Of a stretch of DNA of 64,000 nt, positions 19,227 to 36,581 are shown in pieces. Made by a program: the position numbers and the translations under genes. The stretch is from Malaciobacter molluscorum LMG 25693 (GTDB taxonomy: Bacteria; Campylobacterota; Campylobacteria; Campylobacterales; Arcobacteraceae). The notes under the pieces are model-generated. The model did not search any database and was not told the DNA's origin. It saw only the letters and a program-made list of their open reading frames with translations. Every line of letters starts with the position of its first letter. Positions within the stretch are counted from its first letter, which is position 1. Location of the stretch: NCBI RefSeq assembly GCF_003544935.1, contig NZ_CP032098.1, forward strand, positions 2,170,001 through 2,234,000, in the 5' to 3' direction.

Positions 19227-20132
19227 TTACTCTAATCCTAACTGGTTAAGTCTTAATGACTCATTTCCAATACTTTTAACTTTTAATCCAAATTTTCCTT
19301 CAACTATTACAGCTTCACCTTCACCAATTTTAACGCCATTTACTAAAATTTCTAAAGGTTCATTTACCATTTGGTCAAGCTCAATAATTTCACCAATATC
19401 CCATCTTAAAATATCTTTCAAAAGAAAATGTTTTGTACCTAATCTTACACTAAGTTTTAATTTTATATTAAATAAAAGCTGTAGATTATATGCTGAGTTT
19501 TCTGAAAGAAGTGAACTAATACTTAATTCATCACCCTTTGGATTAGATTGTTGTTTTTGAACAGGAGCATTTTGAGCTGGAGCTAATTGTACTTCACCAT
19601 TAGAGTTTTCGTTAGCTCCAGTAATAGAGTTCATGTAAGGCAATATAACTTCATCAAAACTAATTATTACAGGTAATCTTTCAGAATCCATTGTTAATTC
19701 AAATTCATAAGAATTTTTCTTTGATATAATAACACTCGATTCAACTATAGAAGAATTTAAAATCTCAAACTTTAAAGAACCAATATCAGGGAAATTTTGA
19801 GCATTTGTTGATGTAGAAATACTTCCACAAATATTTGATATTATTTCATTTACTGCATCTGCAATTTCATCATCAATATGCTCTTTTAAATCTCCCATAC
19901 CACCTAACATAAAATATTCAAATTTTGTAGCAGATATAGTAGGAATAAAAAAAGACCAATTTGAAGTACCAGCAGCAAAGTCAAACTTTACATCAACTTC
20001 AATACATTGAGTTCGTTCAATTGAGTCTTCTGATAATAAATTTACATTATCAATAGATGCATTTTTTGATAATAGTTGTTCTAAAGTATTTGATAACTCT
20101 TCTTTTAATATATTTGATAAATCTGATGCCAA
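19227..20132 (-). CDS. fliY: Flagellar switch protein FliY (CheC-like plus FliN domain)
   Basis: A 301-residue C-ring protein. The N-terminal part has a CheC-like segment, IADAVNEIISNICGSIS, then a Pro/Gln-rich linker at about 185-200, then a C-terminal SpoA/FliN domain with LLFNIKLKLSVRLG and LVNGVKIGEGEAVIVEGKFGLKV. The spacing of the CheC catalytic Glu and Asn is not cleanly conserved (E-x3-N rather than E-x2-N), so phosphatase activity is doubtful. There is no N-terminal EIDALL CheY-docking helix. It starts at TTG 20132 with AAAGG upstream. With FliG and FliN it would form the switch; no fliM is seen in the window. Confidence 0.85.
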   Translation of the reverse strand: MASDLSNILKEELSNTLEQLLSKNASIDNVNLLSEDSIERTQCIEVDVKFDFAAGTSNWSFFIPTISATKFEYFMLGGMGDLKEHIDDEIADAVNEIISNICGSISTSTNAQNFPDIGSLKFEILNSSIVESSVIISKKNSYEFELTMDSERLPVIISFDEVILPYMNSITGANENSNGEVQLAPAQNAPVQKQQSNPKGDELSISSLLSENSAYNLQLLFNIKLKLSVRLGTKHFLLKDILRWDIGEIIELDQMVNEPLEILVNGVKIGEGEAVIVEGKFGLKVKSIGNESLRLNQLGLE

Positions 20133-32510: not shown

Positions 32511-33614
32511 TTAGTTTCCAAATTCTGCTATTAGTGATTCTAAATCATCATCATCTAAAACATCTGCCGTATTATCACCATGAATATGTTTTGCAACTAC
32601 TATTTCTTGATGAGAACCTTCATCTTCAAATAAATTATTTAGATAAATAGAAAGTTTTCTAATTACAGCCATAACTCTTTCTATTTTTTGTCTATTAATA
32701 TCATGGAATTGCATTAATTCCATTGCTTCAAATATTTGCATATTTTCAGCTTCTATTTTTGAATTAATAGAATTTAAGTCTTTTTTAATATCATTAACTT
32801 TTGATAAATGATCATTAAAAATATTAATATTAGGAAATTTTTTATTTAAAGATTCTAATAAAGCATTCTGTTTAACTAAAAATTCATCAGCATTTTTTAT
32901 TGTTTTTTGAATATCATTATTATCATCTAATACATAACTTAAAACATCAAAGATTTTAGATGCTTTCTCTTCAGAATCATTTGCAACTTGACTCAATTGA
33001 TTTACAACTTTAGTATCATTTTCAGCAGGCAATGGAAAAATTCCACTATCAATTTTACTCAAAAGCTCTTCTTCTTCATCTATATCTTGATTTTTTTCTT
33101 TAACTGTTTTAGCAGGTTCACTTTTGGGTGCACTATCAGTAATCCCACTTATACTTGATAAGATATCATCAAAATTTTCTTCATCTTCATTCGTACTTGA
33201 TTCATTTGATTTATCATCATTATCTATATCTTTTAAAAGATCATCTATATCATCATTTGATACAGGTTTAGATTCCTTACTATCTACATCATTTATATCT
33301 GATAAAATATCATCTAATTCATTATTATTTGTTTCTATTGTAGTAGATTCAGATGTTTCTTCTTTTATATCTTCAACTTCTTCTTTAGGTATTTCGACAT
33401 CTTCTTCTTTAGGTATTTCTATCTCTTCAGAAGTAATAACATCTTCTTTATCATCTTCAATATTAGTTTCTGCTAATAGTTTATCTATATCATCATTTGA
33501 AATTGTTTCAGCAGGGGAAGAATCTTCTTCCATAACCACTTCTTCTGAATTTTCATTTTCATCTAAATCTAAACCATTCATCAATGATTCTATTTCTTCT
33601 TGACTCATACTCAT
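32511..33614 (-). CDS. cheZ: CheZ-type CheY-P phosphatase with repeated docking motifs
   Basis: 367 residues. The catalytic helix lies at about 298-316 (MELMQFHDINRQKIERVM); Asp305 and Gln309 match the D-x3-Q catalytic pair of CheZ. The C-terminus (354-366, DDDDLESLIAEFG) matches the CheZ CheY-binding tail. The N-terminal 190 residues are very acidic and disordered and begin with SQEEIESLMNG (4-14), nearly the FliM CheY-docking sequence; similar units recur near 39-48, 98-107, 119-129 and 147-155. CheZ dephosphorylates CheY-P to reset the motor. It is next to cheY (32-base gap). Assignment is strong; the role of the extra motifs is inference. Confidence 0.88.
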   Translation of the reverse strand: MSMSQEEIESLMNGLDLDENENSEEVVMEEDSSPAETISNDDIDKLLAETNIEDDKEDVITSEEIEIPKEEDVEIPKEEVEDIKEETSESTTIETNNNELDDILSDINDVDSKESKPVSNDDIDDLLKDIDNDDKSNESSTNEDEENFDDILSSISGITDSAPKSEPAKTVKEKNQDIDEEEELLSKIDSGIFPLPAENDTKVVNQLSQVANDSEEKASKIFDVLSYVLDDNNDIQKTIKNADEFLVKQNALLESLNKKFPNINIFNDHLSKVNDIKKDLNSINSKIEAENMQIFEAMELMQFHDINRQKIERVMAVIRKLSIYLNNLFEDEGSHQEIVVAKHIHGDNTADVLDDDDLESLIAEFGN

Positions 33615-33646: not shown

Positions 33647-34021
33647 TTAGTTTTTTAATACCCCATCAAGTTTCTCTTTTAAAATATCAGCACTAAATGG
33701 TTTAACAATATAATTATTAACTCCTGCTTTTAACGCTGTGATAACTTCTGACTTACCACCTTCTGTTGTAATCATAATAATTGGAGTTTTTTGATGATTA
33801 CCTTCTGATCTTACTTTTTTAACTAATTCTAAACCATTCATATTTGGCATATTCCAATCAGTTAAAATAATATCATAAGCACTTTCAGTAAGTAATTTCC
33901 AAGCTTTTACACCATCTTCTGCTTCATCAAAGTCTTCTTTGGAAAAACCCAATTGCATAACAACATTACCGATAATTCTTCTCATTGTAGAGCTATCATC
34001 AACTATCAAAATTTTCATCAT
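33647..34021 (-). CDS. cheY: Chemotaxis response regulator CheY
   Basis: A 124-residue single receiver domain. Acidic pair Asp8-Asp9, phospho-acceptor Asp55 (LTDWNMPNMNG), Thr85/86 in IIMITT, and Lys107 in VKPF are all present, as is the aromatic Tyr104. CheY-P binds the motor switch to change rotation. It is the first gene of the minus-strand flagellar block, directly followed by its phosphatase gene. No CheA or CheW lies in the window. Confidence 0.95.
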   Translation of the reverse strand: MMKILIVDDSSTMRRIIGNVVMQLGFSKEDFDEAEDGVKAWKLLTESAYDIILTDWNMPNMNGLELVKKVRSEGNHQKTPIIMITTEGGKSEVITALKAGVNNYIVKPFSADILKEKLDGVLKN

Positions 34022-34979: not shown

Positions 34980-35420
34980 ATGGATTTAGAAGAATTAAAA
35001 AGAATTAGAAAAGAAAATTTCTTATCTCATAAAAAGAAAAAAAGAGAGTATTATCTAAAAAATAAATTAGAAAAAAAGCTTTCAACAAAAATAAAGAAAA
35101 GAGAAATAATTGATTATGAAAAAGAGTTAAATGAATTAAACTTTGAAGAAAAAATCAAATCAATTATTAAACAACAAAAAACACATGTAGATAATAGAAA
35201 AGATAGAATAATTGCAAAAATAAGAGAATACAAAGATAAAAAAAGAGAATACTACTTAGAGCATAAAGACGAAAGATTAGAATATGACAAAGAGTATAGA
35301 GAAGAGAAAAAAGAAGAGCTTAGAGAATATAGAAAGCAATACTATGAAAAAAATAAAGAAAGAATTCTAAAGAAACAAAGAGAAAGAAGAAAAAAACAAA
35401 AAATTAAAGATAAAGAGTAA
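34980..35420 (+). CDS. Highly charged helical protein, unknown
   Basis: 146 residues with 53 Lys/Arg and 34 Asp/Glu and no hydrophobic core, signal peptide or membrane segment. Internal repeats of the type KREYYLKNK, KREYYLEHKDER and YRKQYYEKNKER suggest a long single charged helix. It lies 23 bases after flgG and 3 bases before the SPOR-like gene, so the three are probably one operon. No function can be assigned; a filamentous or nucleic-acid-contacting role is conceivable. Confidence 0.6.
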   Translation: MDLEELKRIRKENFLSHKKKKREYYLKNKLEKKLSTKIKKREIIDYEKELNELNFEEKIKSIIKQQKTHVDNRKDRIIAKIREYKDKKREYYLEHKDERLEYDKEYREEKKEELREYRKQYYEKNKERILKKQRERRKKQKIKDKE

Positions 35421-35423
35421 AAT

Positions 35424-36581
35424 ATGGCAGAAAAAATTAATCTTGATGAAAATCAAAATGAGATTGTTGATGAAATAAAACTTGATTCAGACATTAATGA
35501 CAATGATACTTTATCACTTGATAATGAAATAAAAATAGAAGAAGAACCATTAAGCGAGAGCTTAGAAACAACGCAAGAAGCGGATGAACTAGAAGAAGAA
35601 AATTTTCAAAATAATGAAGAAAAAGACATTAGTGAATATGCTACGGATGAAGAAGAACTTAAAGATTACAAACTTCAAAAAAAACAAACAAAACTCCAAA
35701 AAATATTAACTGCGGTTGCTGCCATATTATTAGTTTTTTTAACAATTGGTCTAATTCTTTATTTTACAGGTTTTTTTGATGAAAAAAAGCCTAAAAAAGA
35801 AGAACCTAAAATAGAAAAAGTAGTCGAAAAGAAAAAATTTGATTTTAAATCAAGAGATATTGATTCTAATGAATTAAATAAAAAATTTAATAATTTAACA
35901 AAATATGATCCAAGCTTAGAAACAAAAAGAATGAAAGAAGAAGCAAAAAGAAAAGCTGAGGAAGAAGAAAAGAAAAGACAAGCGGCAGAAGAAAAAAGAA
36001 TTCAAGATATTGAAAATCTAAAAAAAGAGCTAGAAGAACAAAAAAAAGCCTTAGAAGATAGAAAAAATGAATTAATCACTCAAAAAGAAGAACTATTAAA
36101 AATAAAACAAGAATTACTAAATGATGTAGAAAAGAAAAAAGAAGAATTAAAAACTTTAGTAAATAATAAAGAAGAAAATCAAAAAGATACTACTAACAAA
36201 CAAGATCAAGAAAAAGTAGCAACAAATAATACTAATCAAAAAGAAGATAAAACAGAACAAAATATTACTACACCAATTAATATAGTACAAGAGCAAACAA
36301 ATCAACTTATAACAAATAATTCAAATAGTTTTTTACCATTAATTAATGTAACAGTTTTAACTGGTGAATTAACAAAAGATTATTTAGAAAAAATCGAAAA
36401 AATAGATAAAAAAATACTTCTATGTAGAGATAACAAAAATCATATAGAGATTTATGTTGGTCCTTATGAAATGCAAAGTTCTAGAAAAGAGTTATTAGAT
36501 AAATTTTTACAAAATGGTTTTAATAAAGCAATGTTAGTGGATTTAACACAAGAAGAATTTAATAAAAGATGTAATTATTAG
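35424..36581 (+). CDS. Bitopic protein with coiled coil and SPOR-like domain
   Basis: 385 residues: an acidic cytosolic tail (1-90), one membrane helix (about 95-116, ILTAVAAILLVFLTIGLILYF), a Lys/Glu-rich coiled coil (about 165-250), an Asn/Gln/Thr-rich linker, and a C-terminal domain (about 305-375) whose IEIYVGPYEM followed by LLDKFLQNGFNKAMLV follows the SPOR pattern. A SPOR domain would bind denuded peptidoglycan in the periplasm. Co-transcribed with flgG by position, so it may be a polar or motor-associated wall anchor. The family call is by pattern only. Confidence 0.6.
   Translation: MAEKINLDENQNEIVDEIKLDSDINDNDTLSLDNEIKIEEEPLSESLETTQEADELEEENFQNNEEKDISEYATDEEELKDYKLQKKQTKLQKILTAVAAILLVFLTIGLILYFTGFFDEKKPKKEEPKIEKVVEKKKFDFKSRDIDSNELNKKFNNLTKYDPSLETKRMKEEAKRKAEEEEKKRQAAEEKRIQDIENLKKELEEQKKALEDRKNELITQKEELLKIKQELLNDVEKKKEELKTLVNNKEENQKDTTNKQDQEKVATNNTNQKEDKTEQNITTPINIVQEQTNQLITNNSNSFLPLINVTVLTGELTKDYLEKIEKIDKKILLCRDNKNHIEIYVGPYEMQSSRKELLDKFLQNGFNKAMLVDLTQEEFNKRCNY

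Follow-up and report, generated by a model that had tools for sequence, protein, structure and literature searches.

Descriptions of CheZ usually give it a single CheY-binding tail, and FliY of the Bacillus subtilis type has a role as a CheY-P phosphatase. The C-terminus of Escherichia coli CheZ is a CheY-binding peptide (PMC12270135), and EIDALL is the reported CheY-P site in FliM and FliY; the E. coli FliM N-terminus binds activated CheY (PMC9126983), with a key salt bridge from FliM D12 to CheY K119 (PMC7012829). Several described proteins can be set beside the CheZ considered here, that of Malaciobacter molluscorum, a marine bacterium related to Campylobacter, which combines such motifs in greater number. 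E. coli CheZ shares with it the D-x3-Q catalytic helix and a C-terminal tail of the same class (ASQDQVDDLLDSLGF) but is without an N-terminal motif or internal copies. The CheZ of Helicobacter pylori and Campylobacter (NF041271) is orthologous, with an N-terminal MTQEELDALM and a C-terminal DIEALI, but its linker of ~40 residues is without an internal unit and the whole protein measures ~220-270 aa. FliM (N-terminal motif SQ[DE]EIDALL) shares the contact pattern, and the CheZ N-terminal motif is a close match to it, whereas FliM bears a single copy in all family members examined and has no enzyme attached. FliY of the B. subtilis type is another CheY-removing protein bearing an N-terminal CheY-binding motif (for the motif, PMC8809382), but has a CheC-family fold and one motif.

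The cheZ locus and its motifs

The window analysed is a stretch of 64,000 nucleotides from M. molluscorum LMG 25693 (contig NZ_CP032098.1, positions 2,170,001 to 2,234,000), whose genome here is one 2.8 Mb contig. Its cheZ lies directly downstream of cheY, in a cluster of flagellar genes that includes fliG; the opposite (plus) strand at 32511-33614 has stop codons throughout when translated. The features are as follows.

33647..34021, minus strand: cheY (CheYz), just upstream of cheZ; closest solved structure H. pylori CheY1 (3gwg, 158.6 bits)
32511..33614, minus strand: whole cheZ gene, 367 aa; NF041271 Phos_CheZ, E 2.7e-34
33573..33605, minus strand: N-terminal FliM-type motif SQEEIESLMNG, aa 4-14; near-invariant in ~90 Arcobacteraceae CheZ; AlphaFold helix 5-12
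33465..33500, minus strand: internal unit 1, SNDDIDKLLAET, aa 39-50; kept in 5/6 genus members; AlphaFold helix 40-51
33291..33326, minus strand: internal unit 2, NNELDDILSDIN, aa 97-108; orthologous xLDDILxxI in 6/6 genus members; AlphaFold helix 98-111
33225..33260, minus strand: internal unit 3, SNDDIDDLLKDI, aa 119-130; kept in 6/6 genus members; AlphaFold helix 121-128
33147..33182, minus strand: internal unit 4, EENFDDILSSIS, aa 145-156; EN[FY]DDIL or DNFDDIL in 6/6 genus members; AlphaFold helix 148-156
32622..33026, minus strand: long hairpin of two helices, predicted to be the CheZ catalytic bundle, aa 197-331; AlphaFold helices 197-259 and 265-331, pLDDT mostly >80
32688..32702, minus strand: catalytic D-x3-Q (D305, Q309); invariant in alignment A1; position equivalent to E. 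coli QDLTGQ
32520..32558, minus strand: C-terminal putative CheY-binding tail, LDDDDLESLIAEF, aa 353-365; AlphaFold helix 355-366

The protein matches NCBIfam NF041271 (Phos_CheZ) with 118.8 bits, under the curated cut-off of 350, and Pfam PF04344 (CheZ) weakly (E 0.0036, 17.6 bits, under the cut-off of 30.7). The catalytic signature is present as HDINRQ within the predicted second long helix, and the original prediction of a CheZ with D305 and Q309 named the right residues; judged by its sequence, the protein is a Campylobacterota CheZ with predicted phosphatase activity. All other residues quoted in that prediction were likewise found in the translation at the positions given. Thus six motif copies do occur on one CheZ, two terminal and four internal: the N-terminal one reads as quoted, and the internal cores run SNDDIDKLLAE from 39, NELDDILSDI from 98, SNDDIDDLLKD from 119, and NFDDILSSI from 147, all four in the acidic disordered linker between the N-terminal motif and the core.

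AlphaFold gives one helix per motif with low-confidence coil between them, an extra helix at 180-189 just before the core, and low-confidence coil at 332-351 ahead of the tail helix; the input alignment comprised five sequences, the unit helices are of low-to-moderate confidence (block pLDDT ~50-73), and the pTM is 0.33. Of the dimeric four-helix bundle that two CheZ hairpins form, the model shows the one long hairpin. In the Foldseek search E. coli CheZ (1kmi) came at rank 31 amid generic coiled coils, and VIA-align matches are likewise generic. Such searches say little about a long hairpin, and absence from these fold lists does not exclude a family.

Across the same genome, the pattern Q[DE][DE]I[DE]xL picks out the N-termini of CheZ and FliM, its other two matches lying in unrelated proteins, and [DE]I[DE]xL(L/F) matches at background level (65 genome-wide vs 71 in a backwards control). 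No other acidic motif array was found at the loci examined, and the FliY-like switch protein of the window (19227-20132, minus strand) has no recognisable N-terminal CheY-binding motif. The genome also encodes a mini-CheZ of 120 residues (L192:474-836, plus strand; G000:C1:829473-829835), with a D-x3-Q (HQDMHRQKIE) and a tail NDDELEALIKQ, and without the N-terminal motif or array; short matches resembling it occur in many Arcobacteraceae. Beside the flagellar genes, at 34980-36581 (plus strand), lie a basic KKREYYL-rich protein (146 aa) and then an acidic membrane protein (385 aa) without a profile match above cut-off.

Distribution, origin and conservation of the units

The CheZ query was matched in 95/104 Arcobacteraceae genomes, with Malaciobacter halophilus among the relatives returned by the genome-collection search; in four members of the family (G038, G039, G045 and G071), which are probably non-motile, neither CheZ nor FliM was matched. 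Linkers, counted from residue ~19 up to a point 20 residues short of the core, were taken from 90 distinct Arcobacteraceae orthologues and scanned with an untrained pattern, [DENSQ][ILVF][DEN]x[LI][LIMV], with composition-matched shuffles (n=500) as the control. The 90 linkers hold 212 units vs 16.2 ± 4.0 in the shuffles (maximum 30), with at least one internal unit in 86 of them; the M. molluscorum linker alone gives 4 internal matches vs 0.29 expected. An iterated 13-residue PWM returned 244 units, at least one in 89/90 linkers and usually two to four in each, most often spaced 22-26 residues apart; because it was trained on the same 90 sequences that it counts, it served for mapping, and the untrained pattern is the cleaner test. 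The number of units per CheZ ranges from 0 to 7 across the family. When conservation was checked across Arcobacteraceae, the internal units proved common to close relatives, and the predicted array stands because they are kept there.

Outside the family the situation is simpler. In other Campylobacterota families, the 59 CheZ examined all begin with MTQEELDA[LM][MIL] (one with MTQEELETLM), and all 59, from Helicobacter, Campylobacter and other lineages, end in a DIEALI-like C-terminus; the tail motif is thus recovered in Arcobacteraceae CheZ and in 59/59 outgroup orthologues alike. Within the ~40-residue linkers of these 59, no internal unit was found (0.7 expected). The original prediction is right in giving Helicobacter CheZ a single N-terminal motif, and the same holds for every Campylobacterota CheZ examined. 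Since the outgroup proteins have the two motifs and no internal unit, the sequences place the bivalent CheZ as the ancestral state in Campylobacterota and the array as a family-specific expansion in Arcobacteraceae, with one to about five copies added.

The internal units had been presented as relatives of the FliM motif, and here the prediction holds for their presence but not for their closest likeness. Mean BLOSUM scores are 21.9 against the E. coli CheZ tail SQDQVDDLLDSL, 19.3 against the outgroup C-tail and 14-15 against FliM; by such scoring the units are nearer the CheZ C-terminal tail than FliM, most strongly so for E. coli CheZ. Against the family's own N-terminal motif and C-tail they divide about evenly (108 v 98). 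The largest family CheZ examined, the 427-aa protein of L094 (G034), carries three similar DIDELLN units ~34 residues apart, which suggests, from the sequence, that its array grew by repeat duplication. A DNA repeat search in the window and in L094 showed no clean repeat across units, and present-day tandem duplication of DNA was rejected; the origin of the repeats at the DNA level is old or blurred.

Within the genus, internal units 2-4 are orthologous in 6/6 species and unit 1 in 5/6. Codon comparisons within five genus-level groups of Arcobacteraceae gave a pN/pS of 0.27 at unit positions, 0.88 in the six flanking residues on each side and 0.85 in the remaining linker, with values of 0.15-0.33 in the catalytic core and 0-0.18 in the N-terminal motif; these figures are rough because the linker alignment is gappy (gap fraction 0.15-0.32) and synonymous sites are near saturation. 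Synonymous divergence is alike in units, flanks and remaining linker, and the contrast between units and flanks is large, with sharp boundaries. Purifying selection maintains the internal units.

Probable CheY-P docking and its alternatives

The neighbouring CheY keeps D57, W58, T87, Y106, K109 and K119 (E. coli numbering, by alignment). At K91 the alignment has G, unlike the published account, in which K91 is conserved in CheYz; the same study argues that in Arcobacter the CheY that binds the motor is CheYz, a remnant of F3 that works under an F7 kinase acquired from elsewhere (PMC9321776). On the side of CheZ, the phi-[D/E]-x-L-L contact pattern of the FliM and CheZ-tail class is kept by the internal units: at the equivalents of FliM I11-D12-x-L14-L15, the 244 units are hydrophobic in ~98%, D/E in 212/244, and then mostly L/I.

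The most likely function of the array, which we hold probable, would be to bind CheY-P multivalently on a flexible arm and so to feed the phosphatase. The acidic disordered N-terminal arm of CheZ would have grown, by expansion, into a row of helices that dock CheY, and each of these (phi-[D/E]-x-[L/I]-[L/I/M] in an acidic helix) may dock the alpha4-beta5-alpha5 face of CheY with a preference for CheY-P, on the model of the E. coli FliM N-terminus and CheZ C-terminal tail. With six motifs per chain and probably two chains, as in E. coli CheZ, up to ~12 CheY-P could be gathered around two catalytic sites; such docking would concentrate substrate locally in competition with FliM, so that dephosphorylation became faster or responded more steeply to CheY-P. 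We infer multivalent docking because the units keep the docking pattern, the adjacent CheY keeps the face residues and CheYz has been argued to face the motor; the CheY-P preference, the stoichiometry, the dimer and the kinetic effect belong to the same proposal. The analysis itself shows the sequence and its conservation, the selection on the units, the predicted helices and the CheY face residues. Because H. pylori CheZ without residues 1-39, and so without its N-terminal motif, retains phosphatase function and an intact biofilm phenotype (PMC11237671), docking elsewhere than at the tail probably serves for tuning and not for catalysis; and since unit number runs from 0 to 7 in the family, no fixed stoichiometry would be required. 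With so short a pattern as phi-D-x-LL, the partner bound could also be a protein different from CheY.

Such a partner is at the heart of an unlikely alternative, that the unit helices anchor CheZ at the pole by docking a polar or motor component or a ChePep-like protein. ChePep does recruit H. pylori CheZ to the pole (PMC11237671), and this genome, like those of two other Arcobacteraceae, has a ChePep-like gene upstream of gmk. Against such a tether, the residues that the units have at the contact positions are those of the known CheY-docking class. The localisation signal of H. pylori CheZ, moreover, reportedly lies in its central domain and not at the N-terminus. The ChePep-like gene (L220:2909-3700, plus strand) encodes an acidic protein with an N-terminal pseudo-receiver (KPFLP-type motif), marginally matched in BLASTP (E 0.029) to the Helicobacter protein, which we take to be ChePep from the gmk neighbour of its gene. 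It is shorter in Arcobacteraceae, at 263 aa vs 380-442, with a shorter acidic middle than in Helicobacter and Campylobacter, a trend opposite to that of the CheZ linker. As the gene appears to be still present, the array is no obvious replacement for ChePep, and loss of ChePep as its driver was rejected.

It is quite unlikely that the array mainly sequesters CheY-P from FliM, setting the threshold of motor switching with little catalytic effect, as the prediction had in part proposed. The units resemble motifs that bind the CheY face used by FliM, with up to six sites per chain; however, CheY-P docked on a phosphatase that looks active should lose its phosphate, and the closer likeness of the units to the CheZ tail than to FliM fits a role in feeding the enzyme. 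That the helices instead pack against one another or against the CheZ bundle, and regulate the enzyme through autoinhibition or oligomerisation, is improbable: they are amphipathic acidic helices on a flexible linker in the AlphaFold model, but their number varies freely between species. Drift in an acidic low-complexity linker rich in D, E, I, L, S and N, whose length changes quickly (gap fraction as above), has a negligible chance of explaining the matches, given 16 in shuffles of the same linkers vs 212 observed, units conserved while flanks evolve near-neutrally, and outgroup linkers without units; chance or composition as their source is ruled out by the shuffles and the selection contrast.

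Returning to multivalent capture of CheY-P, a more specific version may be ventured, if tentatively: the helices would draw CheY-P from FliM and gather it near the active site, so that the motor responds steeply or with a threshold, which perhaps matches an inherited F3 CheY/CheZ to a horizontally acquired F7 kinase.

A multi-motif CheZ in Arcobacteraceae

A literature search, in which coverage of two key H. pylori CheZ papers was incomplete, returned no description of tandem CheY-docking motifs in CheZ. What is new is a multi-motif CheZ in Arcobacteraceae, inside a phylum of two-motif CheZ. Species whose CheZ has anything from one to several units offer a ready-made gradation for comparing docking valency with phosphatase cooperativity and motor response, and the array may also be relevant to how, in Arcobacter, the inherited CheY and CheZ came to work with a kinase system gained by lateral transfer.
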